Positions 33,371 to 56,304 of a stretch of DNA of 64,000 nucleotides are shown here, piece after piece. Origin of the DNA: Metridium senile (lineage: Eukaryota > Cnidaria > Anthozoa > Actiniaria > Metridiidae). The stretch covers positions 7,074,139 through 7,138,138 of the forward strand of contig OX459099.1 in assembly GCA_949775045.1 (NCBI GenBank), read 5' to 3'. How positions within the stretch are numbered: the stretch's first letter is position 1; each line of letters starts with the position of its first letter. Both the position numbers and the translations under genes were made by a program. A model generated the notes under the pieces. The model was not told the origin of the DNA. It saw only the letters and a program-made list of their open reading frames with translations, and ran no database searches.

Positions 33371-33374
33371 TAAA
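33369..33374 (+). terminator. Poly(A) signal of the left rightward unit
   Basis: AATAAA overlapping the TAA stop at 33368. The converging protease gene has its own AATAAA within its last codons (about 33408-33413), so the two transcription units overlap by only a few tens of bases. Confidence 0.7.
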
Positions 33375-33401
33375 AGAAGAGGAAACGTTGATGGTGTTGT
33401 C

Positions 33402-34016: not shown

Positions 34017-34026
34017 TTTTTTCTTC

Positions 34027-35574: not shown

Positions 35575-35628
35575 GGTGTGAATTGATCGGAGCGAATCTA
35601 TGAATGACGGTGCTCACGGAAGACGCTT

Positions 35629-36333: not shown

Positions 36334-36367
36334 GACATTGAATGAGACAAGAGTTTAAGAGGACTGG

Positions 36368-37295: not shown

Positions 37296-37304
37296 TTTTG
37301 ATCC

Positions 37305-37580: not shown

Positions 37581-37587
37581 GACGTTA

Positions 37588-38082: not shown

Positions 38083-38149
38083 AATAATATCTTGTTACCC
38101 ACCTAAAGAAATCGTTCATTCGCGAGAGAGCCAAGAAGAAGAAGTTATC
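38083..38149. promoter_or_regulatory. Short divergent promoter region
   Basis: 67 bp separate the starts of the leftward virion cluster and the rightward 38150-ATPase pair. It is A-rich with ataatatc and no textbook TATA box. It must hold both start regions unless transcripts begin inside genes. Confidence 0.4.
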
Positions 38150-39948: not shown

Positions 39949-39965
39949 TAAACATCATTTTTATT
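39947..39965. terminator. Overlapping convergent poly(A) signals
   Basis: AATAAA on the plus strand at 39947-39952 and on the minus strand at 39960-39965, one for each converging gene, in only 19 bp. Confidence 0.75.
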
Positions 39966-40398
39966 AACTATCAAACAAAGACTCTAGTACATTCTTGTCA
40001 TATTGATCTTGACCTCCCTGTTTTCTTCTCTTTTTTTTATTCAACGAGTTTCCAATCTTGTTTCCTCCTCTCTTGCGGCTGACAAGAGCGTCGGCAGATT
40101 TCTTCAAGTTCATTCTCATCTCGGTCCCCTCGTCCTGCAGTGCCTGTTTTAGATCTTTCCCCTCTATGACATCTTTTGCGACCGTTTTCATAGCCTGTAC
40201 GCCACGTTTTACTGCTTGGTCCTTTAGCTTCATTCCAACTTTTTTTGCGATTCGTAGAGTCTGGCTGCCCACACGTCTGAGACTTCCCCCGCGTTGTCTC
40301 GGACGGTAAACAGGGATCTCAAACCCTCCATACTGCGGCGTGTAGAAAGGAGTGCCCGCACCGTCTTGGTACTTCGGCACGTAGAACGGTATACTCAT
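39964..40398 (-). CDS. Conserved Polinton-type minor virion protein, GG sites
   Basis: 144 residues from the ATG at 40396-40398; the frame opens further upstream without an ATG. The N-terminus has Tyr/Pro repeats (IPFYVPKYQ, TPFYTPQYGG, IPVYRPRQRGG). A helical basic domain follows (AKKVGMKLKDQAVKRGVQAM, DVIEGKDLKQAL), then KRGG and a Lys-rich tail with QGGQ. Polintons commonly carry a protein of this layout between penton and ATPase. QYGG, QRGG, KRGG and QGG are candidate protease sites. Role in the particle is inferred. Confidence 0.7.
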   Translation of the reverse strand: MSIPFYVPKYQDGAGTPFYTPQYGGFEIPVYRPRQRGGSLRRVGSQTLRIAKKVGMKLKDQAVKRGVQAMKTVAKDVIEGKDLKQALQDEGTEMRMNLKKSADALVSRKRGGNKIGNSLNKKKRRKQGGQDQYDKNVLESLFDS

Positions 40399-40437
40399 GC
40401 CTACGGTTGCAACGAATGAATGGCTTCTCACAGTGGA

Positions 40438-42222: not shown

Positions 42223-43517
42223 AGCGTCTCAACTTGCTGCGAGTCGATCCAGGCGTTGTACTTCTCCGGCCACCCCTTGTACTTGACAAGCACCTGTGTT
42301 TTCTTACTGTCGTTAGGGTCGGGTCGACGCTTCAGAATGGTCTCGATGCGGAATCGTGCGTTTTTTATATGCTCCTCGGTCACCCGTTGCAATTCCGACT
42401 CGTAAAAGGTACCCTGCAGAATCTCGTCACCCTCGTACTCTTTCAGACGATAATACGGCGGTGGACCCTTGTCGCGAGCACGAACCCTAAACCATTCTTC
42501 GGACCACTGAGGAAGGTACCCCTTTCTGAAAATTGTGACCCGCCGACTGATGCGTACCACTTCCCCCACATCAAAACTAAAGTACTTGTCCTTTCTTTCC
42601 TCGGACGCCGTCTCAAAATCGTCACGATACTTCTGGATATCCTCGTACAAGACTTTCCATACGTCCTGCTCGTTGGAACGATTGACCAACGCTGGGGGGC
42701 GCTTGATGGCTGAATGGATGCCGCGATTGTAAGCGTCGACGATCCCGGGTAAGATGTCAATCCAGCGGTAGGAGCCCGTCTCGTAAAAGTACTTGTACAG
42801 TCTCTGTTTCAAGGTGCGTTGAACGCGTTCAGCGAGAGCCGCTTTAGTGTCCGAATGCCCCGATTGAATGATCGGAGGTATGGGGTAGGTTGCCATCAGA
42901 GCCTTGACATTCTTGTTGTAAAATTCAGAACCCTTGTCTACGTATAAGATATGGGGAATGTCGTGGTCCGTCTTTCCGTCCCTTTTGTCTTTCTGCACTT
43001 TTTCAAACACCTCCTTCAACCCTCGTGCGGTTTCCTCGCCGCTCTTCTGTTTCAAAGGCGCAGTCCAAACATAGCGAGACAAAACATCTATGAGCACAAG
43101 CATCCACCCGTAACCATCGTTGACTTTCTTGTGCCACGTCAAATCGGTGAGATCCCCCTGCCATTGGTCGTCTATCGAGTAAGCAACAAAGGGTCGCCGC
43201 GGGTAGTGCTTTCGTGCGGGACGGTGCATTTGATAAGTGGTCTGATCTTGAAGCCATTGCTCTTTTTTGGTTCTGGTCTTTATGTTTTTTTCATCTTTTA
43301 CAAATGGCGACAACCCCGCCAAGGCGTGCGGGTGTTTGGCGCTTGGTTTATACCACTGACTCTTCCACTCTCGTTTCTGCTTCGACACAGGTTTCTTTTT
43401 TGCTTTTCCTCCTCCTGATTGTGCCGCGCAGAATAATTGTCCCGCCACAGCACGAGGACATGCAGCACTTATTGTGGCCTTCAACTGTTGATTCAATGTT
43501 GATTCCATCGCTCGCAT
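42219..43517 (-). CDS. INT: Retroviral-type integrase with chromodomain
   Basis: 432 residues, ATG at 43515-43517. Layout: a basic N-terminal leader containing AAQSGGG (a possible protease site), a Polinton-type HPHALAGLSPFVK and LQDQTTYQMHRPARK region, and the rve core with Asp122 (WQGDLTDLT), Asp194 (YVDKGSEF) and Glu230 (AERVQRTLK), a D-D-35-E spacing. A C-terminal chromodomain occupies about 389-432 (FRIETILKRR ... VKYKGWPEKYNAWI). It would integrate the linear element with 6-bp staggered cuts, as the AAGCTC duplication shows. Between polymerase (56 bp away) and penton on the same strand. Confidence 0.95.
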   Translation of the reverse strand: MRAMESTLNQQLKATISAACPRAVAGQLFCAAQSGGGKAKKKPVSKQKREWKSQWYKPSAKHPHALAGLSPFVKDEKNIKTRTKKEQWLQDQTTYQMHRPARKHYPRRPFVAYSIDDQWQGDLTDLTWHKKVNDGYGWMLVLIDVLSRYVWTAPLKQKSGEETARGLKEVFEKVQKDKRDGKTDHDIPHILYVDKGSEFYNKNVKALMATYPIPPIIQSGHSDTKAALAERVQRTLKQRLYKYFYETGSYRWIDILPGIVDAYNRGIHSAIKRPPALVNRSNEQDVWKVLYEDIQKYRDDFETASEERKDKYFSFDVGEVVRISRRVTIFRKGYLPQWSEEWFRVRARDKGPPPYYRLKEYEGDEILQGTFYESELQRVTEEHIKNARFRIETILKRRPDPNDSKKTQVLVKYKGWPEKYNAWIDSQQVETL

Positions 43518-43573
43518 CTGGCACAGCTGCCGACGAAATACAACTGGTCAAAAAGTTACCCATCTCGATGCTT

Positions 43574-46500
43574 TTAATAACCAAACGGTTGTGTGTAAAC
43601 TCCTTTCCGCTGACGTTTAGTGTACACTAGCTGCACTTGTTTGTCCATCTTTACCGTGCGAAGCTGCTTATGTACAGCATCCCTCACAATTCTACGTGCG
43701 TACGACACCTTTTCCTTTTCTTCCGAATTGACCAATAAGCGCTTCATAGATTCGAGATGAATCTTATCGTTCGCCGAAGGGTTGAATGTGATGCCCTTGC
43801 ACTTGACCACGGTCTCCCCTAGCTTGGTGCGATACGCGTACGATTTTGGACCCAGCGAGACAAACTCAACCAACCAGTTGGTGACGGGGGTCTTGCACTC
43901 GTCTTCCCACTGTCCCAAACACGACCCCGTGGGGATTTCTGGATCTCCTTCGTTGAGTGTGGTGTAGATAATCGAGTCCGTATCGTGGTAGACAACTCGG
44001 TCCCCGAGACGGTCCAACATCTCATACAAACGAAGACGCGCGTGTGCCGTCACACACGAGGCCACCACCGAATTACCGTAGGGCAATGCCGCAACCGATT
44101 CTTTGAATTCGGTGAATGTCACCTGTGCCATATGCCCATCACCCAGAAGCAACACGTTGTTCACCTGCAGTAGATCATTGTACATAATTTCAAAATAGCG
44201 GGCAGCATTGTCGACGTATTCGGTCTTGCTTCTGTTTGGGTTCTGTCCGAGCTTTCCCCACAGGGAATTCAAGTTCAATTTCGCGACACTACGTAACCCG
44301 GGGTTGAACTCAATCTTAGTCCTGTCCAGTCGAATCCCCTCACGCTGAAACACCTCTTCCAGATAAGCATCCTTGTCTTCGTCGGTGACACACCTCGAAG
44401 GCCACCCCGACGCCTCCATCTTTATCTTAAGATTTTGATTGATGTACTCAGCAAAAAGCGTGTCGCTTGTTTCGCAGTAATGCCACACCTCGTGCACCAT
44501 AGCGATTCGATAGCCCTTTTCCAGAGCCACCTTGAGTTCAAAGGTTGTCCACACACCATCGATCAAAGCTCGTGCGGCGTCGTCGTGCATGCACCGCGAC
44601 GGGGCGCTCTCGTCCGTCATACACGTGCGGCACAACCCAAACATCAAACGGTGATTCATGATTGTCGGCAAAACAGGGAAGTAGAGCCCTCGCGGGGGTA
44701 TTATGTCCACCTTAGCGATACCAAACCACCGTTCGTTGCGGATGTTGTCCACACACACATCCAACGGAGGAAGCATGTCGGGTGTTAAAATAGACGGATG
44801 CCCCACAGGAAACTTTTCCTGCTTCATCACTGTAGGGTACAACGAAACGACATCGATATAACGAATACGGTGCGATGGGGGCGATGATCGATGCAAAATT
44901 GTATCCACAGTATCTTCTTCTTCTCCACAGTCGTCATCGTCGGTGTCGAGATCACGAGTATATGCATACAGTCGAATCGCATTGGTACGCCCCCCACACA
45001 AGGCCGACCTCGGATTCAAAGGCATATGGCGTAAAACCGACCGCGGTGGTGTAGGATGCTGTTCGCGTTCGACATCCCAGGCATGACTCCACATCTCCAC
45101 GACAGAGTACCCTGCATGGCGCAGCGCCCTTGTACGCATGCGCGTCTTATGAAATAAGGCTACCATGCTCGTCCCCAGATAAGCGTTATACGTGTGTCGG
45201 TCCTTGAAACACTCTTCACATCCATGCCAAAAGCACCCGTGGTACTGGTAGACGGTTCGTGTGCGGGAGTCGTAGCCGTCCACCTTGGCACCTAGCAGCG
45301 TCGCCTCTCCCTCGGAAGAAAGCGCCGAACGAAGGTTAGGCAACTGCAGAGAATACAACCACTCCATGGCCTCGGCCGAATAACGGTCTCTGTGTCGGTA
45401 ACCCATAGGAGGTACGACCCCTAGCGTTTGAGGCGTTAAAAAATTTTTAGTGAACACTTTCAGACAAGTTGACGCCAGCGTAACGCACTCCGAAAAGGGA
45501 TCCACACCAAACAGTTTCACGTACAACTCTCGGTACTTCAAACACCCCCGCATCATCACTAGTACATCCTGAATGCAGTAAGCCTCCAATTCCTGCTGCA
45601 GGTGCATCACCTTCCCCTCCTGCGATTCCAACCATTCTTTTAATTCTCGTCGCGCATCGGCACTCCCCATCTCCTCATAACCATAGTAGTGTAAGGCAGG
45701 GTACGGTCCTGTGTAATCAGCATTGGCTTTAGTATTGAAGAAATGAGGAAAGAACCCCTTTCGACCTCCAGACGTTCCAAACGTTTTGGGAAACTGACGC
45801 AACGCCATGGGGATAAAGCATACCGAATCCTTGAACGTAATATTCTCAACGGTCATAGTGATCACCTTCGCCCCTTGATAAACGCATCGAGGTTTGAGAT
45901 TACGCTTTACACACTCCTCCAGGATGGGGTAAGAGTCGTACCCCTTGAAATTATGCGCTAGAAACGTGTACTCGCTCCATTTGACATGGTTTTTTCCCAT
46001 GAGCCAATCGACAAATTCAGAAATGGTGTCAAACGTCCACAGCCGTCGGCGTCCGCAACTTCCAGTGCATCCTCGAACGGCATAATCTTCAATATGGTCT
46101 TGACACTTCTCACACACCAACAACACCACGACTTTGTTCACTATATGGTTAGCCTCTAAACATTGAGTCTCAAAATCGAAAAACGCCAACCGCATACGCC
46201 TCGTGGACACGTCGCGATCTTCGGGAGAAGACGGCACCTCTCCTACACCCTTCACGAAGCACTTGTGTTCCCCACGGATCACTTGTTGACTCCCACACAC
46301 AGTGCAGTCGTATTGGTAGCAACGATGGATCGACTTCGGTTTCAACTCGTATCTCGGCTTCCCGTCCTCATCGCTCTTTGCACCCACCAGTCGATCGACC
46401 ACAGCATGGCATTCGTCGCATTGAAAACGTCGCTCACAGTGAGTGTAAACGAACCCATTCTTAATACGACGTTCTTTGTGCTTGTTATAACACAACTGGG

Positions 46501-47977
46501 ATCCAAATGACATCCCACACACATCACACACGATGTCGCACACAAGATAACGCGATCGATAATGCACTTGAGCATCTCCGCAGCGGACGCACGTTTTTGT
46601 GCACTTGTGATGCTCAGGGCTGTTGTACCCTTTCAAGCACACGTTACAGAAATAACTACGCCCTATCCACGCAGGCATGGAACGAATCCAAGTAAAATGG
46701 TGTTGACAATAATTTAAGAAAATGGGGTGCGTGCCTGCTCCGAAGCGACCCAAGATCGTGCGAAGTGATTCGTCATACACCACCAATTCAAACGGGTATT
46801 CATCAAGTTCCACATCCCCATACTCATCGTTAATTCTTTGACTCCACGTCTTAACCGTTTCCATCCCCGCAGGCATATTCCAGGTCTCCCACATGTTCAT
46901 TTCTTCGTACCAGTCGTCCAAGGGTTTAGTGCCTTCTTCCCACCCCCATTCACAGAGGGCCTGGTACAGCGCACGCCCCAAACAATTCTCTTCATCATCT
47001 TCGGTCCTCTTTGCTTTCTTACGTCCCAGTTCCTTCTCGGTGCATTTGTAGTGAGGGCGCTTCGCACCGAGCTTGTAAGGGTGATCGGTAAATTCTGCAG
47101 GACACTTGTGATTTTTGCGGTACATGTCCCCACACACCAAACACATCGTTATTGATTTATGATACATCTTGTGAGGCGACCGTACCTCATAGAGACGACC
47201 TTTCCCTTCATCTAACCAGAAGACCAAAGTTTTTTCAACCGACAACGCTCTGCTCTTCCACTTGACCTCGTGTTGTGTGTTCTCTCCACCCGGTTGATAT
47301 AATACCATAACATTCACGTCTTTGTGTTGTGAGCACCAGTGACTCAAGCAAAACATCCAGTCTTCTTCTACCTCATCCATGTCTTCAAAATCCGCTAACC
47401 CTTGCAATCTGGTGTAACGTGCAAGTATTGCCTTTACGTCTAAGGTCAAATTGGGTGTCTCCGCGAACGACCGCCCTCGAACGATGATGTTGAGTTCGAG
47501 TTTTTCGGCGAACAGCGCTTCGGTCATCCTATTATTCTTGATACTTTTCCCTCGAGCATCCAGACTCTTCACTATGGTCACGGTGATTTCAAGCGAAGTC
47601 CCCATCAGCCATTCGCGTTTCGATTGTTGAATCTTGCTCACTTCGTCAAGAAGTCTCATCCGCTGGTGCTTGAAAGAATGCGTAGGACGAAACGGTAGAA
47701 ACACAGGATAAGTCAGATCACCCCCATACAGAGTCATGGCCACACGATCGCCCGCAGAAATCCTGTCCTTTTTCCAAATCTCGTCCAAACACTCCTCAAA
47801 CAGAGTATCGATCCACTGATGTCCTCGCTCATAATCGTACTCATTTTCTTCTCGCTCTAAAGAGGATTTTGTAGTAAATTTATACTCGACAGTACGTGTC
47901 CGAAATTCTAAGGAATTTTGAAATTCAGATCTATTGATTTTGCTAAAGTACAGATGCTTCACTTCGTCTTCAGCCAT
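43574..47977 (-). CDS. POLB: Protein-primed family B DNA polymerase
   Basis: 1467 residues, ATG at 47975-47977, uninterrupted. The N-terminal 590 residues have a NCLGRALYQAL segment and FLNYCQHHFTWI, an OTU-like pair typical of Polinton POLB, then many CxxC motifs (from about 279 and 444-575). Exonuclease: D601/E603 in FFDFETQ, N676-D681 in LAHNFKGYDSY, and Y800-D804. Polymerase: motif A D1042 in YIDVVSLYP, motif B K1233-K1242 (KLNLNSLWGK), motif C DTDS at 1332-1335. The conserved YHGCFWHGC lies at 912-920. It replicates the linear genome from terminal protein. All active-site residues are present, so it could be functional. Confidence 0.96.
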   Translation of the reverse strand: MAEDEVKHLYFSKINRSEFQNSLEFRTRTVEYKFTTKSSLEREENEYDYERGHQWIDTLFEECLDEIWKKDRISAGDRVAMTLYGGDLTYPVFLPFRPTHSFKHQRMRLLDEVSKIQQSKREWLMGTSLEITVTIVKSLDARGKSIKNNRMTEALFAEKLELNIIVRGRSFAETPNLTLDVKAILARYTRLQGLADFEDMDEVEEDWMFCLSHWCSQHKDVNVMVLYQPGGENTQHEVKWKSRALSVEKTLVFWLDEGKGRLYEVRSPHKMYHKSITMCLVCGDMYRKNHKCPAEFTDHPYKLGAKRPHYKCTEKELGRKKAKRTEDDEENCLGRALYQALCEWGWEEGTKPLDDWYEEMNMWETWNMPAGMETVKTWSQRINDEYGDVELDEYPFELVVYDESLRTILGRFGAGTHPIFLNYCQHHFTWIRSMPAWIGRSYFCNVCLKGYNSPEHHKCTKTCVRCGDAQVHYRSRYLVCDIVCDVCGMSFGSQLCYNKHKERRIKNGFVYTHCERRFQCDECHAVVDRLVGAKSDEDGKPRYELKPKSIHRCYQYDCTVCGSQQVIRGEHKCFVKGVGEVPSSPEDRDVSTRRMRLAFFDFETQCLEANHIVNKVVVLLVCEKCQDHIEDYAVRGCTGSCGRRRLWTFDTISEFVDWLMGKNHVKWSEYTFLAHNFKGYDSYPILEECVKRNLKPRCVYQGAKVITMTVENITFKDSVCFIPMALRQFPKTFGTSGGRKGFFPHFFNTKANADYTGPYPALHYYGYEEMGSADARRELKEWLESQEGKVMHLQQELEAYCIQDVLVMMRGCLKYRELYVKLFGVDPFSECVTLASTCLKVFTKNFLTPQTLGVVPPMGYRHRDRYSAEAMEWLYSLQLPNLRSALSSEGEATLLGAKVDGYDSRTRTVYQYHGCFWHGCEECFKDRHTYNAYLGTSMVALFHKTRMRTRALRHAGYSVVEMWSHAWDVEREQHPTPPRSVLRHMPLNPRSALCGGRTNAIRLYAYTRDLDTDDDDCGEEEDTVDTILHRSSPPSHRIRYIDVVSLYPTVMKQEKFPVGHPSILTPDMLPPLDVCVDNIRNERWFGIAKVDIIPPRGLYFPVLPTIMNHRLMFGLCRTCMTDESAPSRCMHDDAARALIDGVWTTFELKVALEKGYRIAMVHEVWHYCETSDTLFAEYINQNLKIKMEASGWPSRCVTDEDKDAYLEEVFQREGIRLDRTKIEFNPGLRSVAKLNLNSLWGKLGQNPNRSKTEYVDNAARYFEIMYNDLLQVNNVLLLGDGHMAQVTFTEFKESVAALPYGNSVVASCVTAHARLRLYEMLDRLGDRVVYHDTDSIIYTTLNEGDPEIPTGSCLGQWEDECKTPVTNWLVEFVSLGPKSYAYRTKLGETVVKCKGITFNPSANDKIHLESMKRLLVNSEEKEKVSYARRIVRDAVHKQLRTVKMDKQVQLVYTKRQRKGVYTQPFGY

Positions 47978-48017
47978 CTAAATAAAAAACCAAGAGGCAA
48001 TTTGAACGTTCAACACA

Positions 48018-48023
48018 TTTATT
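48018..48023 (-). terminator. Poly(A) signal of the leftward early unit
   Basis: Minus-strand AATAAA 59 bases beyond the last early exon stop and just before the polymerase start. It would end the whole leftward early transcript. Confidence 0.6.
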
Positions 48024-48081
48024 TGAAATAAACAAATTTACACAAACCATATCTATTTATCCATCAGTGACGTGTGCATCA

Positions 48082-48498
48082 TCACAAAGTGAATTCTATT
48101 GCACTCAATTCATACTTAAGTTTGTGACGCAGGCGGTAACCAGAGGCTTCTAGATTTTTGAGCAAAACACCGAATACATCATCTGCATCGTTCGATTGCA
48201 AACGCATACTCTTGTATATATTCAGACGTTCCCACCACGACACATAGCCCTTTTTTTGAAGATTAAAAACTTCCAGAATACGTTTGACAAAAGTCAAACT
48301 CATGTATATGCGTTCCATTTCTACACACTCTCTCAAGTGACCGCCTGCGTACAATTCACCCCATCTCCCCCAAATCGTAATTTCAACTTTCTTGTTTTTT
48401 TCATCATTTTCATCAAAGATAAGTTGCGGCTTCCAGCGACCCAAACCCTCGACTCTTTTTCTTGACTTTTTGAAGTAATAAAGACTATTGTCTACAAC
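48082..48498 (-). CDS. Early terminal exon 7, no ATG
   Basis: 138 codons open from the 3' splice site ttgtaatttttag; the TAG of the splice site is the in-frame stop before the first codon GTT. It has no Met until well inside. NLS-like KKSRKRVEG occurs near the start, then a compact domain (VEITIWGRWGELY, MERIYMSLTFVKRILEVF, WWERLNIYKSM). No RING. The splice site overlaps the stop codon of exon 6. Family unknown. It would be expressed as an alternative C-terminus joined to exon 1. Confidence 0.6.
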   Translation of the reverse strand, partial: VVDNSLYYFKKSRKRVEGLGRWKPQLIFDENDEKNKKVEITIWGRWGELYAGGHLRECVEMERIYMSLTFVKRILEVFNLQKKGYVSWWERLNIYKSMRLQSNDADDVFGVLLKNLEASGYRLRHKLKYELSAIEFTL

Positions 48499-48505
48499 CT
48501 AAAAA

Positions 48506-49720
48506 TTACAAATCCCAGTCTAAGTTCAGAAATTCTTCGTTAAATTGTACTCTACTCATCTCGCTTATTCGCGCGTTTTCAGGAACCGTGTGCGTATCGA
48601 CAAGCAAAGGACTAAGGAGATTTTCAGAAAGATCGTAACACCGCCTGCAGCGGGTTATTCGACTATGTGCAGTCATAATAGGATAATGAATCCCGTAATC
48701 CTTTCCCCACCAAGGTGCTATCGATTCCTTGCATTTTGGACACTCGATTGAACCTACAGGAACATTACTAGCACTATACCCAGCCATCCCGACGGGGGTT
48801 TTGAACAGAGTAGGATCAGGTATTAAGTTCTGCGATGGGATATACATGCGTATATCAGCGAACCCCGTTACGAGTCGGAAATCCCTATCCTTCTGCGCTT
48901 CGGCGAGTTGACTGGGCATGTACTTGAGCAATTCCGTGTGCTTACGCTTCTTTTCAAGCATAGCGCTCAACTTTACTTGGTGCTCGGGAATAAGTTTCCC
49001 TACTACTCTAACCTTTAAATAGTTAGTATACGTACTTCTAATATATTTATTTATTTCTTCCATCCCTGAGAGAGGCAAGTTAAAAAAATTAATCATCGCG
49101 CGACAATCGGTCGGCCACATATAATGACACAAATACGTTTCAGGGTGACACGGGCACGGACACGGGTAAACTCTGATGTTTTTGATAAAATGAGCAATAA
49201 GGCACAGTGCATGAATTCGCGTCGGGGGATGACGATTAATAACAGAATCGCCACAAAGAAGTATAACCCAGCTAACCCTGGTCTTCGCAAAAGGAATTGT
49301 ATCGTCCTCGTCAACCCCGTTGACCACCTGTTTGCTACAAACAGGACAGACATGATCAACTTCTTCATTATCAACGTACGTCGCCCTAGTGCGAAGACCA
49401 TAGCTTGGCGAAGGGTGTGTGATAAAGGCACTAGTGAGCGGCACAAAAAAAGTCATGACTAGCTTATTTACAAAAGGATCTAAAATCATTTCTTCTCCCG
49501 AGTATATGTACAACTCATTGAAGTGGTTCTTCAAATAATAGGACCCCACCATCCCCAGACGTTTGCACAGTGGACGATCTTTTCTGCAGTATGGACACGA
49601 AGACTTCAGCCCTTTCAAAATTATCCATTTCACAAAACATGAAGTATGAAGCGACGCACGGCAACAATACAATGTATTCAAATCTTCATTTTTTCCACTA
49701 TCCAAACAAATCGCACATTT
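48506..49720 (-). CDS. Early terminal exon 6, RING finger protein, no ATG
   Basis: 404 codons open from the 3' splice site gattttttatttttag. The first residues are KCAICLDSG, so the RING (CAIC...YCCRASLHTSC...CPYC) starts at codon 2 and cannot be complete without an upstream exon. The remainder is 350 residues with further Cys pairs (HVCPVCSKQV; CHYMWPTDC; SIECPKCKESI...RITRCRRCYDL), giving at least two more zinc-binding sites. Likely a ubiquitin E3 ligase acting on host proteins (inference from RING). Composition is AT-rich, unlike the polymerase next door. Confidence 0.7.
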   Translation of the reverse strand, partial: KCAICLDSGKNEDLNTLYCCRASLHTSCFVKWIILKGLKSSCPYCRKDRPLCKRLGMVGSYYLKNHFNELYIYSGEEMILDPFVNKLVMTFFVPLTSAFITHPSPSYGLRTRATYVDNEEVDHVCPVCSKQVVNGVDEDDTIPFAKTRVSWVILLCGDSVINRHPPTRIHALCLIAHFIKNIRVYPCPCPCHPETYLCHYMWPTDCRAMINFFNLPLSGMEEINKYIRSTYTNYLKVRVVGKLIPEHQVKLSAMLEKKRKHTELLKYMPSQLAEAQKDRDFRLVTGFADIRMYIPSQNLIPDPTLFKTPVGMAGYSASNVPVGSIECPKCKESIAPWWGKDYGIHYPIMTAHSRITRCRRCYDLSENLLSPLLVDTHTVPENARISEMSRVQFNEEFLNLDWDL

Positions 49721-49743
49721 CTAAAAATAAAAAATCTTTATTA

Positions 49744-50505
49744 TTATCTATACTGCATCATCTTGTTGTTTACAAATTGTGCAAGACTCAAAGGATTTCT
49801 ATCTCTCAAATCAAAAAGAGGAAACATACACATAGTAACAGAACGCTTTGCAAAGTGTTCCTCAAATTCAAAAGGAAAAACAGTAACAAAAACCTCAAGA
49901 ATTCTGAGCATTGCAGTGGGAAACACTACAAAAAATTTACCTTCATTCTCAAACTCAAACTCTTTTTTCATAATGCGCAACTCTCTATTCTTTCTATAGA
50001 ATAAACTTCCGCTTAATAAACGGATACTAGGTAACGGTCTCGTACCAAAATTCGATTGAAACACAAACATGACATAGGGAGTTACAGGGTAAGATTCCCA
50101 ATTCAACCCTCCCGTTAAACTAGAAATATAACTTTTTTGAGGCGGTCTGTACCACCAAAAAGGGGTACTTGCAACCTCCGTAGAAGGAGAAATTTCAACA
50201 GGACCAACCCAAGGATAATCATTATTATCCACTTTATTTACATAGTTTAAAAGCGTCCACGGATGACCATAGTCAACATCATCGTGTATTGCTTCGTAAC
50301 ACATTAAATCCATCCCCGAATACCCCATAATCGCTTCAAATCCTACAGAAGTTATTTTTGCTCTACAATAAGGACAAGTTGGTGCATTTGCAACGGTGTG
50401 ATACCATCGGAAAATGCACTCTTTGTGAAAATGATGCATGCACTCCAAATATACTATGCCATTCTCGACGAGGAATTCCTCAATACCACCAAAGCACACT
50501 TGGCA
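49744..50505 (-). CDS. Early terminal exon 5, RING-H2 protein, no ATG
   Basis: 253 codons open from the 3' splice site tattcttgtttatag. It begins directly with CQVCFGG, the first Cys pair of a canonical RING-H2 (CQVC...ECMHHFHKEC...CPYCRAK). The rest has no recognised domain. It contains WSYPVTPY-like aromatic stretches and an acidic FEFENEGKF region. The minus-strand AATAAA after the stop (about 49730-49735) lies only about 15 bases before the exon 6 splice site, so poly(A) choice and splicing would compete. Confidence 0.7.
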   Translation of the reverse strand, partial: CQVCFGGIEEFLVENGIVYLECMHHFHKECIFRWYHTVANAPTCPYCRAKITSVGFEAIMGYSGMDLMCYEAIHDDVDYGHPWTLLNYVNKVDNNDYPWVGPVEISPSTEVASTPFWWYRPPQKSYISSLTGGLNWESYPVTPYVMFVFQSNFGTRPLPSIRLLSGSLFYRKNRELRIMKKEFEFENEGKFFVVFPTAMLRILEVFVTVFPFEFEEHFAKRSVTMCMFPLFDLRDRNPLSLAQFVNNKMMQYR

Positions 50506-50591
50506 CTATAAACAAGAATATTTTTTATTCAATTCCGGAAAATTATTCGAAAGCACGACAATCAGAACACCAGAATCAGTAAAAAATAGTT

Positions 50592-50927
50592 TTAATTACC
50601 AAAATTAACGGGACAAACGTATTCGTTATGATCGTATATTTCACATCCAACATATTCTACATTATTTGAAAAATATGGTTCAGCACCATTCCTATCTAAA
50701 AAACAAGACGCATTCGTCTTTACAACTTTAACACATTTCAATATTTCTTTTTCAAAGTTTCTTAATAATTTTTGAAGTGGATGATTAAAGCAGCATGACA
50801 TGGATGGATAACACCATATTTTATTGTCCAACAAAAAGTTATAGTAGTTATTTAATAATCGAAGAACTAACTGGTGATTAGCAATAATCCCATGAGAAGT
50901 CTTGATTACCTCTTGACCAATTGTTTC
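50592..50927 (-). CDS. Early terminal exon 4, no ATG at start
   Basis: 111 codons open after gtttgtctactag, beginning with GAA. Leu-rich helical start (HQLVLRLLNNYYNFLLDNK), then scattered Cys (SMSCCFNH, KCVKV, GCEIYD, YVCPVNFG). No known domain. Short overlapping frames around 50915-50990 leave the exact exon structure uncertain here. A second possible acceptor, cacttttag, lies near 50995. Confidence 0.5.
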   Translation of the reverse strand, partial: ETIGQEVIKTSHGIIANHQLVLRLLNNYYNFLLDNKIWCYPSMSCCFNHPLQKLLRNFEKEILKCVKVVKTNASCFLDRNGAEPYFSNNVEYVGCEIYDHNEYVCPVNFGN

Positions 50928-50984
50928 CTAGTAGACAAACGAAACATATCTAAATACAGGAAACCATTTTCTTCCTCGCAAATT

Positions 50985-51221
50985 TTATAGACCTAAAAGT
51001 GAATATGATGTATCATTTAGCTTTTCAAGTAATCTTCTGGCCTTTTCGGCATATGAATCGCAAAGTCTAAACACCTCCATCGAACATGCTGCATTATTAA
51101 CCTCTTCAAAATCATAAATAAATTTCTTTTGCTCTTCGAAAAAATTTAACACTTTTACGTGGTTACATTTATTATTTTTGTATCTTTTTCCCATCACAGA
51201 ACTCAGATTAACGATGTATTC
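50985..51221 (-). CDS. Early terminal exon 3
   Basis: 78 codons open after ttttttcatag, first codon GAA. A Met occurs at residue 9 or 10. Basic start (GKRYKNNKCNH), then a helical region (NFFEEQKKFIYDFEEVNN, YAEKARRLLEKLND). No RING and no recognised family. It matches the other early exons in splice-site style, phase and composition. Confidence 0.5.
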   Translation of the reverse strand, partial: EYIVNLSSVMGKRYKNNKCNHVKVLNFFEEQKKFIYDFEEVNNAACSMEVFRLCDSYAEKARRLLEKLNDTSYSLLGL

Positions 51222-51340
51222 CTATGAAAAAATTATCACCAGTTATCATAGTTATTTTTAATTTTTTTTAACTCTTTCATCATAATCAACCACGAATCTC
51301 CAAGTAAACGGCATCCCTACAATAATTAAAAAACTTTACT

Positions 51341-51772
51341 TTATTTTTTCTTTTCTTTTACTACTTTGCTACACGTGAACGAAAACGCCTTATTAAACAA
51401 ATCGTGGCGTTTACGAAATGAAAGATTATAAAATTCTTCATAACTTTTTCGAACAAGTCCAAAATAACGACCGTGAATGCTCTCTTGAATACATCGAGGT
51501 GGCACAAAGTCAGGTATCACACACAGTGCTTTGCGACAATACGGACAATTTATCGCGCTGCCCGATTCAAAGATTTGTTTCTTTGTCCAGAACATTTGTA
51601 ACACACACTTCCCATGAATCGATTGTCTACAACAAGGTGTATGCTCCATAGTATTTACATCATTATTTAAGAAACAAATGCCGCATACCGTGATTTCGTC
51701 TTCTTTATCATCCACTTCTTTCTTCTCTTCCTTTTTTTCCCCATTCTTCTTCACTTTTTTCTTAGGTGGTTC
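51341..51772 (-). CDS. Early terminal exon 2, RING protein with NLS, no ATG
   Basis: 143 codons open after attttttatttattag. The start PPKKKVKKNGEKK is a strong monopartite nuclear-localisation-like signal, followed by an acidic patch and a RING (CGIC...TPCCRQSIHGKC...CPYC) of the CC-x5-H-x2-C type shared with exon 6. The first Met lies inside the RING. The AATAAA poly(A) signal overlaps the stop (about 51340-51345). A nuclear E3 ligase is the natural inference. Confidence 0.7.
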   Translation of the reverse strand, partial: EPPKKKVKKNGEKKEEKKEVDDKEDEITVCGICFLNNDVNTMEHTPCCRQSIHGKCVLQMFWTKKQIFESGSAINCPYCRKALCVIPDFVPPRCIQESIHGRYFGLVRKSYEEFYNLSFRKRHDLFNKAFSFTCSKVVKEKKK

Positions 51773-51835
51773 CTAATAAATAAAAAATAAGAATTAATCA
51801 AGATGAACTTTTTTAATCAGTTCTTTACATTCTTA

Positions 51836-52243
51836 TCAGATGTTTTTTGTTACATAAGTAGCGTATTTATACTCTACTGGTTCGCACATTGCACATCTAT
51901 CTCCTTGACTTGGATATTCCTTCTCGTTACATTTCTTTTTGAAACTTGGTGCAAAAACATGTGTATAACACTTTTTCTCCTTATTTGGAATGGCTCCATA
52001 ATACTTCAACAGGTACTCATCCTCGTTCATCGTGTGTTGGTCCGTCTCGTTTATCTCGTTCGCCTCTTTTTCTCTTCTGATATTTTCTGCCATCTCACAG
52101 CGAAAGTTATGTTCGGCACACCGCCATTTCATGAATTCTATTGCTTCGGCTTCGGTGACAATTACCTGAGTATTTTCTTCACCCCACATCTCTTCTTCTT
52201 CTTCCTGAGTATTGCTAGTACTTGCTTGTTGATTATCAGCCAT
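51836..52243 (-). CDS. Early exon 1, source of the N-terminus
   Basis: The only ATG-initiated frame at the head of the leftward early block. The upstream ATG at 52315 lies between the TATA box (52326-52333) and the expected transcript start near 52300, so the ATG at 52241-52243 is preferred, giving 135 residues if unspliced. The N-terminus is acidic (NTQEEEEEMWGEENTQ). Two 5' splice sites fall exactly between codons: CAG/GTAATT after 52166 (strong) and TAT/GTAACA after 51854 (weaker). Both match the phase of all six downstream exons. The unspliced C-terminus contains DRCAMCEPVEY. Confidence 0.65.
   Translation of the reverse strand: MADNQQASTSNTQEEEEEMWGEENTQVIVTEAEAIEFMKWRCAEHNFRCEMAENIRREKEANEINETDQHTMNEDEYLLKYYGAIPNKEKKCYTHVFAPSFKKKCNEKEYPSQGDRCAMCEPVEYKYATYVTKNI
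52165..52166 (-). promoter_or_regulatory. Candidate common 5' splice site, leftward early unit
   Basis: CAG/GTAATT, phase 0, 26 codons after the preferred ATG. A good match to the metazoan consensus. A second phase-0 candidate is TAT/GTAACA at 51854/51853. Confidence 0.55.
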
Positions 52244-52325
52244 CTCAAGTCTTTTTCTTCGCTCAGTAGTTCTCTTGCTTGTAATGCTCTCAAAGTGATG
52301 TGCCAAACTGGACATATCTAACCTC

Positions 52326-52333
52326 TATATATA
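52326..52333 (-). promoter_or_regulatory. TATA box, leftward early promoter
   Basis: TATATATA, 90 bases from the opposing TATA box. Confidence 0.65.
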
Positions 52334-52394
52334 CCACACTCACACAGGTCTCCGGAAAAACGTAGGGGTCCCCCCACCCCCTACCTGATTTTCG

Positions 52395-52406
52395 CTCCGC
52401 CCCCAC
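52395..52406. promoter_or_regulatory. GC box between the divergent TATA boxes
   Basis: CTCCGCCCCCAC fits an Sp1/KLF-type site. The 80-bp spacer also holds a C-run and a cgtagggg/cccctac inverted pair. Confidence 0.5.
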
Positions 52407-52414
52407 AAACCCTC

Positions 52415-52421
52415 TATATAA
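52415..52421 (+). promoter_or_regulatory. TATA box, rightward early promoter
   Basis: TATATAA. The transcript is expected to begin near 52445, with no ATG before the 5' splice site at 52520. Confidence 0.7.
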
Positions 52422-52444
52422 CTGGTTATCTCCAACCACTTCAC

Positions 52445-52520
52445 CATTAACGATTGAACCAGTCTACACAGCGTAAAGCAAGAAAAGACACCAAAAGATC
52501 ACTTCGAAACTTCTACAAAG
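52445..52520 (+). promoter_or_regulatory. Non-coding leader exon with strong 5' splice site
   Basis: No ATG between the predicted start and CAAAG/GTAACT at 52520/52521. The nearest 3' splice site, ctctcgttgcag, ends at 52606. Further acceptors precede each downstream gene, at 52909 (ttttatttttag), 53361 (gttttttacag), 54360 (caacttgtgcag) and 54903 (tttgccctctcag). Confidence 0.65.
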
Positions 52521-52614
52521 GTAACTAGCCATTTTATTTCTATTACACAACCACCTAATGCCTGAGTCCTCGAGGGATTCTGATCCGCGCTTATCTCTCG
52601 TTGCAGAATCTCTC

Positions 52615-52719
52615 ATGGCTCAGGCACAAATTACCCGCTTTGACGATAGAACGCACCGCGTGCTCGCTACCATTTCGTATTACAACGATTATTTCGAATA
52701 CATGGGTGTGGGACTTTAA
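52615..52719 (+). CDS. Short early gene, 34 codons to TAA
   Basis: ATG eight bases after the 3' splice site at 52606. It encodes 34 residues (MAQAQITRFDDRTHRVLATI, then an aromatic stretch ending YMGVGL) before TAA at 52717-52719. The same frame continues open for 52 codons. The protein is unrecognised. Either a nonsense mutation has truncated a roughly 87-residue early protein, or the short form is real. Confidence 0.5.
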   Translation: MAQAQITRFDDRTHRVLATISYYNDYFEYMGVGL

Positions 52720-52878
52720 GATCCTCTAGACTTGCAAATCCTCAAGGAAGACGTGCAAATGGTTGACGAGTACATCAACGATTACATTCAACACCTCAAC
52801 GCAGACATATGGAGAAAAATACTTTTTTTTGACCGATTGCTCGTTCGTCAAAATCAACCATTTAAAATCCTTCACTAA
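52720..52878 (+). pseudogene. In-frame continuation after TAA
   Basis: 52 codons following the TAA without interruption to TAA 52876-52878, with a helical acidic character (LQILKEDVQMVDEYINDYI, ADIWRKILFFDRLL). There is no ATG at its start and no convincing intron around the stop. It looks like the severed C-terminal part of the 52615 gene. Confidence 0.45.
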
Positions 52879-52914
52879 AAAGTACACACCACGGTTATTT
52901 TATTTTTAGCGATC

Positions 52915-53136
52915 ATGTCGTGCTATAAATTGCAACCTTTTCATTTGAAATGTCACCATGTCATCATGCTTCTTCAACCGCCGCCAAACATAGGCAAAAC
53001 GGTCGAAGTCCCGGCGTGTCCTCACTGTAAAAAACCTGATCACTATTACCTCTGCCCACACTGTGCTCAAAATTTTTTCACGTGCCGCTGCGTCATTTCG
53101 GACTATTACAAATACTATCCAAATCAAAAAACCTAA
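52915..53136 (+). CDS. Small zinc-ribbon-like early protein
   Basis: 73 residues, ATG five bases after the 3' splice site ttttatttttag. His/Cys near the N-terminus (LKCHHV). Then CPHCKKPDHYYLCPHC and FTCRC form a treble-clef or ribbon-type zinc site. Too short to name. It is followed 14 bases later by the membrane protein at 53151 on the same predicted mRNA. Confidence 0.65.
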   Translation: MSCYKLQPFHLKCHHVIMLLQPPPNIGKTVEVPACPHCKKPDHYYLCPHCAQNFFTCRCVISDYYKYYPNQKT

Positions 53137-53150
53137 TCATTCGTCTCGCG

Positions 53151-53342
53151 ATGTTTGCTCTGATAACCGCGCTAGTCGTGCTCGTTTTGCTCTTTATTCT
53201 GATAAAAACCAAAAACAAACAGCCGGACGTGCGCCTGTGGGCCGTAAGCGTTTTTAAACAGATCACCGAAGAAGTGATCAAACAATTCCTAGTGAAAAAT
53301 GATTTAACGCGTACCATGCGCCACCAAAGAAGTCGTTTTTAG
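53151..53342 (+). CDS. Small single-pass membrane protein
   Basis: 63 residues, ATG at 53151 (an open frame further upstream overlaps the previous gene and has no better start). An N-terminal hydrophobic segment, FALITALVVLVLLFILI (residues 2-18), is followed by a basic cytoplasmic-type tail with a helical stretch (VSVFKQITEEVIKQFLVK). Small membrane proteins of this type occur in the early regions of many animal DNA viruses. No homologue is recognised. Confidence 0.6.
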   Translation: MFALITALVVLVLLFILIKTKNKQPDVRLWAVSVFKQITEEVIKQFLVKNDLTRTMRHQRSRF

Positions 53343-53364
53343 AGTATTATGTTTTTTACAGTCG

Positions 53365-53901
53365 ATGGCCGCCGCGGACGAAGACCCCATCCGATGCCCT
53401 TGTGACGTCCCCGCCAAACACTACAAGAGCAAGAAGAACATCGACTTCTCCAAATGTGGCGTAACCGTAGACCCCGACATCTACAAGAAGATGGCGCTCT
53501 GCACCACGCAAGCGGAAAAGAGAAAATTGTTGCAGAACACCGACTTGGGGTGTATGTTCAACCTCAAAACTGAAGACGTCGAACACCTACCCGATTCCGT
53601 TTTCAAGTACCCACCGTTCTGTCAACCCAAATGCCCCGAACACCATTGCTACGCTAAAATCGCCGTCTCCCACTCAACCAACAACAACAACCGATGTTTC
53701 TTTGCCTGCAGCGTCGGCTTCCCAAACATCCCTTGCGGCTTCTTCAAATGGTGCGACGACCAAGAGATCATCAAAGAAATGGAAAAACAATACTTGGAAA
53801 GTCTGGAGACGAAAACCGAGAAAAAAAAGGACGATGCCGCGCCACCCAAACGCAAGCGCGCCAAATGGATCAAAAAACCCATCGCCGTAGACGACGACTG
53901 A
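53365..53901 (+). CDS. GRF-type zinc-finger protein
   Basis: 178 residues, ATG four bases after the 3' splice site gttttttacag. An N-terminal Cys-containing region (RCPCDVP) leads to a zf-GRF domain at about 89-131: CPEHHCYAKIAVSHS, NNNRCFFACS and PCGFFKWCDD, with the characteristic CGFFKW core. The C-terminus is a charged helix and a bipartite basic NLS (KRKRAKWIKK). GRF fingers bind single-stranded nucleic acid in proteins such as NEIL3, TOP3A and APEX2, so a DNA-binding early protein is likely. The stop TGA is followed by CTA, a known leaky context, and by an open in-frame extension. Confidence 0.8.
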   Translation: MAAADEDPIRCPCDVPAKHYKSKKNIDFSKCGVTVDPDIYKKMALCTTQAEKRKLLQNTDLGCMFNLKTEDVEHLPDSVFKYPPFCQPKCPEHHCYAKIAVSHSTNNNNRCFFACSVGFPNIPCGFFKWCDDQEIIKEMEKQYLESLETKTEKKKDDAAPPKRKRAKWIKKPIAVDDD

Positions 53902-54201
53902 CTATATGAACCTTTCGAAGCAAGACAAAAGACCACTCCTCGCTTCACCCCCAGCTTTGGCACACCGTACAAACCGTTATTCAGACAAGCCTTTGGTTGC
54001 GGTCCGTTAGACCCTCACAACCCGTTCCCATCACACGCCTACCCCGCCAGTTCTTCGTTTGGATCGCCATTCGTCCGACCCACCAACAACTTTGGTCTGT
54101 TTGGTCGTCTTCCCAGGAGCACTTCTCCACCACCGCTCACGCTCGGCACACCGACCACTTCAAACGACGAAACCCCAGAATCCTACAACGTCCTCTTCTA
54201 A
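53902..54201 (+). CDS. In-frame FG/P-rich extension after UGA-CUA
   Basis: 99 codons continuing the GRF gene frame after TGA (53899-53901) to TAA (54199-54201). Rich in Phe-Gly and Gly-Thr-Pro motifs (FTPSFGTPYKP, SSSFGSPF, NNFGLFG, TLGTPTT), with no ATG at the start. UGA followed by CUA is the best documented readthrough context in animals. Translated, it would add a disordered, FG-nucleoporin-like tail to a minority of the GRF protein. Confidence 0.55.
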   Translation, partial: LYEPFEARQKTTPRFTPSFGTPYKPLFRQAFGCGPLDPHNPFPSHAYPASSSFGSPFVRPTNNFGLFGRLPRSTSPPPLTLGTPTTSNDETPESYNVLF

Positions 54202-54202
54202 G

Positions 54203-54322
54203 ATGTTCTTCTCCCTGCTCACCGTGGCTCTCATGCTGTACGAAGACTGGAGACGTTGTCACAGTCCCCACTCTTCGTTCAACCACTCATTGTATAAGGC
54301 TTTAATATCACATGTAAAGTAA
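54203..54322 (+). CDS. Small hydrophobic ORF
   Basis: 39 residues with ATG one base after the TAA of the FG-rich extension. A hydrophobic N-terminus (MFFSLLTVALMLY) is followed by a His/Ser-rich tail. The poly(A) signal AATAAA is at 54330-54335. May be a tiny membrane peptide or chance. Confidence 0.4.
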   Translation: MFFSLLTVALMLYEDWRRCHSPHSSFNHSLYKALISHVK

Positions 54323-54329
54323 ATTTTGA

Positions 54330-54335
54330 AATAAA
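54330..54335 (+). terminator. Poly(A) signal within the rightward early unit
   Basis: AATAAA 8 bases after the 54203 ORF and 25 bases before the next 3' splice site. Confidence 0.65.
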
Positions 54336-54374
54336 ACCAGTTTGTAACTCAACTTGTGCAGTCGTGTTGCAAAA

Positions 54375-54878
54375 ATGCTCTCCTCGCCACGCTACTTCGA
54401 GTACATCCTCAAAGACTTCGACGAAGTCGACGCCATTGTGCGCAAAGAGTTCGGCGATCTCGACTACCTCGACGTGCGCCACCACAACTTTCTCGATACC
54501 GGCTTTCACCGCCACGTCGTCGTGCGCAACTGCCCCTACCTAGGCGGTGTCAAAAACATGCTAGGCACGAACGCCGAGCTGGTGACCGACTCGCCTCTGC
54601 TCCTGAAGCTGGGCAAACACGTGTGGCAGTGCAGCGAGATCTCCCAGAAAGACATCCTCCGCCACGTGGGCGAACTGTGCTCACCCACCATGTGCCGCTG
54701 TCCTCACGCCGGCTGCCAAAAGATCCCCATCATCGTCCACGCAGGGCACACGTTCAACCACTTCGCCAAGTTCGCCAACGACCGTCACACCTTCGGCATA
54801 AACCTCTACCCTCACATGCAATGCCCCCACACCGACTCCGACGCCCCACGCTTCGAGGCCGCCAATCGTCTATGCTAA
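54375..54878 (+). CDS. Right-end paralogue 1
   Basis: 167 residues from the ATG at 54375, just after the 3' splice site caacttgtgcag. Not a known family, but clearly homologous to the gene at 55341. Shared elements are FEYILKDFDEVD against FSYKIHRFDGVE, a following R-x-E acidic segment, a VVVRNCP/ILVDNP strand, and LLKLGKHVWQC against YSHLGKHVISC with a D-x-L-x-x-V helix and LC after it. This copy adds Cys/His clusters at the C-terminus (TMCRCPHAGC, HMQCPHTD) that suggest zinc binding. High GC at third positions supports real coding. Confidence 0.7.
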   Translation: MLSSPRYFEYILKDFDEVDAIVRKEFGDLDYLDVRHHNFLDTGFHRHVVVRNCPYLGGVKNMLGTNAELVTDSPLLLKLGKHVWQCSEISQKDILRHVGELCSPTMCRCPHAGCQKIPIIVHAGHTFNHFAKFANDRHTFGINLYPHMQCPHTDSDAPRFEAANRLC

Positions 54879-54901
54879 CCTTATTCTTTGTTTGCCCTCT
54901 C

Positions 54902-54903
54902 AG
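54902..54903 (+). promoter_or_regulatory. Textbook 3' splice site with branch point
   Basis: tgctaac (54874-54880), a pyrimidine tract and ctctcag ending at 54903. The branch-like sequence overlaps the stop of paralogue 1. Confidence 0.7.
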
Positions 54904-55269
54904 TGTATAGAATGCCAAATGGGTGTCGCAATTATGTTTCTCGACACAACCGACAAGTGCCTGTTCTGTCAGAGGGACCACACTACGCTGCTCCGCCCCG
55001 CATGTACGTTCCGCCTAGCGAACGAGACCTTCGAGGCCATGATGAGCATACACCCGCTCCCGATTACTCAACCCCTGAGTGTGTGGCGCGACTCGTACGT
55101 GATGCACGGCGCGCAGTCCAAGCTTCTGTACGCCACAGTCCTGAACCACAAGAGGCAGCAGGACATGATGCGGGGGGACATCCTCGGGATAGCATGGGTC
55201 CAGACGATGCAGAAGCGCAGGGAGCGCATAGGCAAAGCGATACTTCTGAGTACATCCCACCGCCACTAG
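54904..55269 (+). CDS. Early zinc-finger exon or gene, overlapping a second frame
   Basis: From the 3' splice site the frame opens directly with CIECQMG and continues with KCLFCQRDH, a four-Cys zinc site, then a helical basic region (MMRGDILGIAWVQTMQKRRERI). If an ATG is needed it is at 54919, losing the first Cys pair, so an in-phase upstream exon is possible, as in the leftward unit. Codons are strongly GC-ending, which favours this frame as the main one. An alternative frame from ATG 54912 to 55298 is also open. No homologue is recognised. Confidence 0.6.
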   Translation, partial: CIECQMGVAIMFLDTTDKCLFCQRDHTTLLRPACTFRLANETFEAMMSIHPLPITQPLSVWRDSYVMHGAQSKLLYATVLNHKRQQDMMRGDILGIAWVQTMQKRRERIGKAILLSTSHRH

Positions 55270-55298
55270 AGAACGACCCCATCGTCGCCGCGGCGTGA
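54912..55298 (+). CDS. Possible overlapping gene, Pro/Tyr-rich
   Basis: 128 residues from the first ATG in the exon, overlapping the zinc-finger frame almost completely. Low-complexity, with YVPPSERD, PAPDYSTPE and EYIPPPLEND motifs resembling short proline-based docking sites. Lower GC at third positions makes it the weaker frame, but it has the first ATG downstream of the splice site. Confidence 0.3.
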   Translation: MPNGCRNYVSRHNRQVPVLSEGPHYAAPPRMYVPPSERDLRGHDEHTPAPDYSTPECVARLVRDARRAVQASVRHSPEPQEAAGHDAGGHPRDSMGPDDAEAQGAHRQSDTSEYIPPPLENDPIVAAA

Positions 55299-55340
55299 CC
55301 TCCACCAAACGCCTTTCCGCCGAAGCCGACGACGTGGCCG

Positions 55341-55907
55341 ATGATGCCTCCGCCGCCACAAACCCTCATGCCTCCGTCGTTCTACGAGACGCAGACGCAG
55401 ACGCCGCCACCGCCACCGACACCCTTCGAGCAGCCGCAGTTCTTCAGAACCCTGCCGCCGGTGCTGTTCTCCTACAAGATCCATCGCTTCGACGGCGTCG
55501 AGCCCTTCCTGCGCCAGGAGCTGGCCGATCGCAAATTCATGGTGATCGCCGAGACCGAGAACGACTTCGTGTACTACATCCTCGTGGACAACCCGGCGTT
55601 CGCTCCCCAGCAAGACTACCTGGGGCGCACGGCCTACTTCGCCGAGGACACCAAGCTGTACTCCCACCTGGGCAAGCACGTCATCTCGTGCAACCGCCAC
55701 GTGACGCACGACGACGTCCTGCTGCTCGTGCGTCTGCTGTGCTGTCGGGACAACATCCCCGTCACCTTCGCACACGTTCACCCCTACTTCTGCGGACTCG
55801 TCGACACCGTGAGGAACTCCTCCACCGGCGTCGTCGCCGTCCCGCCCCACAAGATGAGCAAGGCCTTGTCCCACCTACCCGACCTGTTCCACTTTTGGAA
55901 CCTGTAA
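55341..55907 (+). CDS. Right-end paralogue 2
   Basis: 188 residues, ATG at 55341. The Pro-rich start (MMPPPPQTL, TPPPPPTPFEQPQ) is absent from paralogue 1. The shared domain runs from about residue 42 to 140 (FSYKIHRFDGVEPFL, ILVDNPAF, YLGRTAYFAEDTKL, LGKHVISC, VRLLCC). It is the last gene before the right terminus. AATAAA at 55928-55933 would end the rightward early unit. The function is unknown. The tandem arrangement shows duplication with divergence. Confidence 0.7.
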   Translation: MMPPPPQTLMPPSFYETQTQTPPPPPTPFEQPQFFRTLPPVLFSYKIHRFDGVEPFLRQELADRKFMVIAETENDFVYYILVDNPAFAPQQDYLGRTAYFAEDTKLYSHLGKHVISCNRHVTHDDVLLLVRLLCCRDNIPVTFAHVHPYFCGLVDTVRNSSTGVVAVPPHKMSKALSHLPDLFHFWNL

Positions 55908-55927
55908 AGCAGACGAGAAAGACAAAA

Positions 55928-55933
55928 AATAAA
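55928..55933 (+). terminator. Poly(A) signal, right end
   Basis: AATAAA 20 bases after the last gene and 42 bases before the terminal repeat. Confidence 0.7.
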
Positions 55934-55974
55934 ATGTACTAAAAACCATTTTTTCAAATTAAAAACCACTCGAT

Positions 55975-56304
55975 CAAAAACACCGACTCGACGCCCGCCG
56001 CCGACCTTCCTCGCGCGCGCGCGCGCGAAGCGCGCGCTCACGCGCGTCGGCGACTTGGACGCCGCCCGCGCCCCCCTCCCGGCGAACCGAGGCCCAGGCG
56101 TCGGCCCGGTCACGCGCGTTGCGTGATGTCGAGGTGGCGTGACTGTCACGGAGGCGTGGGGGTGGGCGGTTGTTAGGGACGCGCTGGGGGTGGGGAGGTT
56201 GCCTTGGATACGGTTGGTTTGTTTAGATGCTGAGCTGGTACTTGAAGTGGTTGATAGGTGGCATCTCATTACAGGTCACATATACATATGCCCCATATAC
56301 TACT
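55975..56304. repeat. Polinton 1 right terminal inverted repeat
   Basis: Inverted match of 30884-31213, 330 bp, ending ACTACT. Confidence 0.95.

Follow-up and report, generated by a model that had tools for sequence, protein, structure and literature searches.

Short shared N-terminal exons with downstream frames that lack an ATG of their own are known from papillomaviruses (E1^E4 and E8^E2) and from the polyomavirus T antigens. Here, a stretch of 64,000 nucleotides from the sea anemone Metridium senile was analyzed (assembly GCA_949775045.1, contig OX459099.1, positions 7,074,139 to 7,138,138). We refer to this whole stretch as the window and give all positions relative to it. The window contains a Maverick/Polinton element, and its sequence makes it highly probable that the early region of this Polinton is a coding-leader splicing cassette, in which one start exon would be joined to alternative bodies. 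Papillomaviruses and polyomaviruses are unrelated viruses and have far fewer alternative bodies than this cassette.

By likeness of scheme, the nearest precedent appears to be the adenovirus E2B region. For HAdV-A31, Pol (c4866-8042 & c13193-13201) and pTP (c8222-9982 & c13193-13201) are annotated with a common N-terminal exon (PMC2794291, Table 1). As predicted for the cassette, a short exon is common to PolB and another body, and it is in phase 0 (9 nt, or 3 codons). In contrast to the cassette, which has six bodies, PolB and a 26-codon exon, the adenovirus entries in that table comprise two bodies, three codons and no RING bodies. In a further adenovirus case, the N-terminus of E4orf6 is joined to DBP, as proven by RNA and protein (PMC9499273). 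There, one N-terminal piece is in frame with an alternative C-terminus, as is predicted for the cassette. As far as described in that work, the adenovirus fusion joins distinct transcription units, and the ubiquitin ligase role is exerted via a recruited cullin complex and not by a viral RING.

Intact vertebrate Mavericks have been reported without introns (PMC8097293), in contrast to the splicing predicted here. According to the same report, they share with the present element PolB, integrase, inverted repeats, a 6-bp target duplication, (AGT)2-type ends and accessory regions. Our literature search, which covered mainly openly accessible work (the adintovirus paper of Starrett 2021 lay outside it), yielded no description of such splicing in a Polinton or adintovirus that we recognised.

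Layout of the leftward early region

Splice sites were scored with a generic metazoan matrix. Therefore, all p-values given below are nominal. On the minus strand, a TATA box (52326..52333) precedes a coding leader exon of 26 codons (78 nt; 52166..52243). This exon is acidic, carries the start codon and is followed by a phase-0 donor after 52166. Further along the same strand lie six frames starting at 51772, 51221, 50927, 50505, 49720 and 48498. The initial annotation had described each of them as opening straight after an in-frame TAG preceded by a T-rich run, and all six were confirmed.

The six frames are referred to as bodies A to F. Body A (51344..51772, 143 codons) contains a RING variant and a basic stretch. 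Bodies B (50988..51221), C (50595..50927) and F (48085..48498) comprise 78, 111 and 138 codons, respectively. In body D (49747..50505, 253 codons), which matches RING in Pfam, the finger starts at codon 1, and in body E (48509..49720, 404 codons) it starts at codon 2, both as annotated before. The RING signal covers residues 29-80 in A, 1-48 in D and 1-46 in E. The first Met codon is number 42 in A, 10 in B, 43 in C, 23 in D, 57 in E and 61 in F, and it falls within the RING finger in bodies A and D. A seventh frame, missed by the initial annotation, is that of PolB (43574..47977, minus strand), which very probably belongs to the cassette set as its last body. It opens likewise, directly after a T-rich TAG (TTTTTTATTTAG followed by ATG at 47977), which makes seven of seven.

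We propose that a TATA-driven leftward transcript, presumably early, would begin with the acidic exon, where the sole suitable start codon is located. The donor of this exon, in phase 0, would be joined to one of several acceptors, each located at the first codon of a body. The bodies available would be three with a RING, three others (B, C and F) and probably PolB. All products would carry the same acidic tag at the N-terminus, and those with a RING might act as E3-like ligases. For the divergent rightward unit, we expect a non-coding leader spliced to acceptors that lie shortly ahead of ATGs.

In all 11 copies of the region that were compared (see below), poly(A)-like signals lie across or next to the stop codons of A, C and D. 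No such signals were found within about 60 nt of the stops of B, E and F, and in F3, the related family introduced below, a single exon carries one at its stop. Therefore, no poly(A) model is claimed.

A high-scoring acceptor-like site at 51316 (minus strand) is followed by a 26-codon phase-0 frame, which was considered as an extra body. The AG is kept in the copies. The frame is interrupted in three of the nine non-identical copies and was therefore left out of the body count.

Conservation among copies in the genome

The genome (389 Mb in 169 contigs) was searched with the leader. This resulted in 11 matches, including the window and its tandem repeat, the early region of which is 100% identical. 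Ten further early regions were thus compared with the window, and since one is identical to it, nine non-identical copies remain. The TATA box and the GT of donor 52166 were kept in 11/11 copies. The same holds for the acceptor TAG at 51772, 51221, 50927, 50505, 49720 and 47977, and at 48498 it was kept in 10/11. Two phase-0 donors had initially been assigned to the ATG exon. Donor 52166 held up (score 5.2), but the second one, at 51854, did not: it ranks below the 12 best donors in its stretch, and only 3 of the 10 other copies retain its sequence.

Indels set in right after donor 52166, and the starts of the exons remain in frame. The leader exon had no indels in the nine non-identical copies. 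Downstream of the donor, eight of the nine have indels, with a net frameshift in six. Around the acceptors, nine indel events were counted in 189 upstream columns, compared with one (3 bases, in L012) in 189 exon columns, and the AGs themselves were free of indels. Variable columns numbered 20 upstream and 13 on the exon side. Exons A, B and E were open in all nine non-identical copies, E also without any indel. Five copies lack 2 nt close to the end of exon C. Exon D is broken in L012 and has a stop close to its end in L016. Exon F is missing almost entirely from L015 and for the most part from L017, with E and PolB still open in both, which suggests that bodies can be lost singly.

Selection was estimated by pN/pS, here crude counts of variable sites and not tree-based rates. 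Between the TAG and the first Met of exon E, variation by codon position was 4/4/13 and pN/pS was 0.23. The corresponding values were 0.20 for D, 0.42 for C and 0.45 for F, and the PolB N-terminus had 0.08. We also looked for a retrocopy of a spliced transcript among the best candidates scored. All 11 leader matches reach at least query position 351, with the donor at 155. Since no match stops at the donor, a retrocopy was rejected.

Five copies (L012, L013, L015, L016 and L017) hold about 200 extra bases between C and D, most of which are missing in the window and in the remaining four non-identical copies. These bases contain a further phase-0 open frame behind TTTTTTACTGATTCCAG (TTCAG in L017), so the putative acceptor is CAG and the TAG criterion played no part in finding the exon. 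It starts CSDC...CHCKFHGEC...CRNC, with small differences between copies, and its cysteine pattern is RING-like from codon 1. Its length was 77 codons in three measured copies; in the other two phases a stop follows 6 codons and 1 codon on. A weak tblastn match connects it to an F3 RING (4e-4).

Related families in the same genome

A search with PolB revealed two more families with full-length PolB, F2 (69% identical) and F3 (64% identical). The initial annotation had suggested that related elements be checked for phase-0, TAG-headed exons, and the divergent family F3 does repeat the layout. Its leader begins MATNNQSSQ and its best donor, GAAGATGAG followed by GTACGT, lies 140 codons on in phase 0. 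Behind the leader are eight acceptor-headed phase-0 frames, four of them with RING fingers and PolB last. Counterparts were found for A (E 2e-22), C (1e-15) and F (7e-15), the last of which was unlisted by tblastn at E 1. In three further RING frames the finger begins at codon 1, 2 and 1, and the PolB frame begins KTRSM.... Seven of the F3 frames are headed by TAG (nominal p 6e-10) and one, the exon at 6058, by CAG. All eight acceptors rank within the top 27 of 177 AG sites. Three of the four F3 fingers exceed the Pfam cut-off (one was scanned in part), and the counterpart of A is below it. The stop of one F3 RING exon lies past the next acceptor, an overlap that is easier to reconcile with alternative acceptors than with independent genes.

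F2 has a leader of 26 codons in phase 0, with a second donor that scores equally, and its PolB frame opens after TTTGTTTGTAG, a T-rich TAG (KARNM...). Thus, in the window family, F2 and F3 alike, the leader is in phase 0 and the PolB frame opens in phase 0 at a T-rich TAG. According to the central claim of the initial annotation, a single ATG exon supplies the start for alternative phase-0 C-terminal exons. The ten further copies (one identical) and the layout of F3 support this claim.

Chance expectation and alternative explanations

The region contains 251 stop triplets. Sixty are TAG, and 25 of those score at least as high as the weakest of the seven frames. For all seven frames (six bodies and PolB) to be headed by an acceptor-like TAG, the nominal p is 4e-8. 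Among frames of at least 75 codons, the TAG-acceptor test was passed by 7 of 12 in the cassette, compared with 6 of 53 in the host part and 5 of 73 elsewhere in the element. The seven passing frames of the cassette are the six bodies and PolB.

Several observations weigh against a coding-leader cassette. Three of the acceptors are moderate, ranking 22, 29 and 42 of 252 AG sites. Among 296 GT sites two score above 3, and the one inside exon D, at 49941 (5.3), is as strong as 52166. The pN/pS of the leader (0.57, from seven changes) differs little from the 0.65-0.79 beyond the donor, so the difference across the donor is carried by indels. The frame beyond the donor also stays open in the copies, and together with the small pN/pS contrast this makes an unspliced product possible. 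Before the first Met of exon A there are eight non-synonymous and no synonymous changes. The own ATG of PolB sits right at the acceptor, and tagging of PolB by the leader would thus not be required. The extra exon reached only 14.6 and 11.9 bits in Pfam (two copies scanned) against a cut-off of 27.3. The F3 frame in the same place as body B has no significant similarity to it. In F2, the frame of exon A is interrupted, and B, D and E could not be made out. Finally, PolB relatives at 35-38% identity in the same genome mostly begin behind a TAA that lacks a T-rich run, or else behind a TAG whose run is weaker. As far as tested, the scheme is therefore confined to this clade.

Other explanations for the row of frames were weighed against these data. 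TATA-like sequences ahead of A (51871) and C (50989) would agree with each body being an independent gene that has a promoter and a short ATG exon to itself. However, candidate donors for such exons are scarce, with 52166 and 49941 the only GT sites scoring above 3, and the phase-0 ATG ahead of 49941 is just two codons away. The spaces between bodies are also short (7 nt from the stop of E to the acceptor of F), and the overlapping stop of the F3 RING exon argues in the same direction. We consider separate genes improbable. Marginally less probable still is a trans-spliced leader that reaches the acceptors from elsewhere in the genome. A row of several acceptors on one strand would suit it, but such a leader must bring a start codon in the right phase, and in all three families a suitable phase-0 donor exon is present a short way upstream. 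Spliced-leader trans-splicing is, to our knowledge, not known from sea anemones.

Decay of genes that have lost their former starts is seen in single copies, where D is broken (L012) or F is lost (L015 and L017). As an account of the frames in general it is very unlikely, because A, B and E are open in every non-identical copy and A, C and F have F3 counterparts at the same boundary. We give an equally small chance to the TAG being read through or recoded instead of serving as part of an acceptor. In its favour, the TAG directly heads seven of seven frames, but CAG stands there in two exons, the F3 exon at 6058 and the extra one carried by five copies, and read-through was rejected on these grounds. 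The T tract before the TAG varies in length among copies, which also speaks against it.

If the proposed joining of one coding leader to alternative bodies, several of them with a RING and PolB at the end, is correct for this Polinton, it would suggest that adenovirus-style splicing is older or more widespread than thought, and the ATG-less RING frames of such elements would be explained. Gene finders could then apply a simple rule, that is to accept phase-0 frames directly after a T-rich AG. A more far-reaching scenario is speculative, and we think it rather doubtful. In it, everything on the left arm in this Polinton clade, RING ligases and the replicative polymerase alike, would be expressed from one donor and carry the acidic tag, RING bodies would be gained and lost as acceptor-headed cassettes, and adenovirus E2B, with the start exon common to Pol and pTP, would be a reduced relic of the scheme.

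RING bodies and their relatives

The initial annotation had counted three RING fingers. A RING signal was indeed detected in A, D and E, but the curated Pfam cut-off of RING_2 (27.3 bits) was passed by D alone (35.6), with A at 22.9 and E at 24.1. The variant CCRxSxHxxC is common to A and E. By sequence, body D matches RNF4 RING chains, and for body A no solved structure was found by this route. An E3 activity of the RING bodies, like a purpose of the acidic tag, is an inference.

Protein relatives were sought for D and E in a word-based, length-limited search, with none for D at E 0.001 (88 candidates) and none for E at 0.01 (1056 candidates). In IMG/VR, short exact peptide patterns from PolB, exon D, the PolB alignment and the exon A alignment gave no relatives. 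The predicted fold of exon F (pLDDT 67.5, pTM 0.68) matched nothing in PDB or BFVD at E 0.001. The fold prediction of exon D was poor (pLDDT 29.8).

Just past donor 52166 the window reads VIVTE (52165-52145, minus strand), and the F3 leader (L050:1870-2289) holds VIVEN. We take both to resemble SUMO-interacting motifs, possibly by chance.

The rightward arm

On the plus strand, the divergent unit (52400-53901) has one good donor, 52520 (score 4.7, with the next best at 0.2), which ends a predicted non-coding leader region (52413..52520) with a TATA near 52414. Acceptor 52607 is followed 8 nt on by the ATG of a 34-aa frame (52607..52719). Acceptor 52910 has an ATG 5 nt on, which opens a 73-aa frame (52910..53136), and acceptor 53362 lies 3 nt before the ATG of a 178-aa GRF zinc-finger protein (53362..53901). 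The acceptors 53362, 52910 and 52607 rank 1, 2 and 5 of 164 AG sites. Donor and acceptors were present in all 11 aligned copies. On the same arm of F3, four of the six best among 172 AG sites precede an ATG by 1-2 nt, and the first 900 nt contain two good donors. Since these acceptors lie just before ATGs, a non-coding leader is predicted for this arm and a coding leader for the opposite one.

The Maverick/Polinton element

The element at 30884..56304 looks complete as a Maverick/Polinton, with PolB and an integrase. Its ends read AGTAGT...ACTACT, and the 6-bp target site duplication AAGCTC is found on both flanks. Terminal inverted repeats of about 340 nt (30875-31213 and 55975-56314) are 99% identical. 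PolB is of the protein-primed type (DNA_pol_B_2, 132.3 bits versus a Pfam cut-off of 25.8), and its relatives at high identity include proteins from the sea anemones Exaiptasia (62% identity) and Actinostola (48%). The integrase matches rve (36.6 versus 32.6 bits) and Chromo (27.7 versus 25.1 bits). Its chromodomain is C-terminal (residues 390-430 of 432), which fits the adintovirus definition as worded in PMC11071296. Matches to Pox_A32 (16.4 bits versus a curated cut-off of 22.8) and Peptidase_C48 (14.6 versus 20.7), which bear on an A32-like ATPase and an Ulp1/adenovirus-type protease, were weak. As regards a double jelly-roll major capsid protein, the large minus-strand open reading frames of the element had no Pfam match, and their folds were not computed.

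Together with about 1.5 kb of flank, the element is repeated in tandem at a distance of 26.9 kb (29360-37075 and 56305-64000) with 99.7% identity, either as a recent tandem duplication or as an effect of assembly. In the host flank, positions 6438-7900 form a long, strand-asymmetric tandem repeat with a GC skew of about -0.5.

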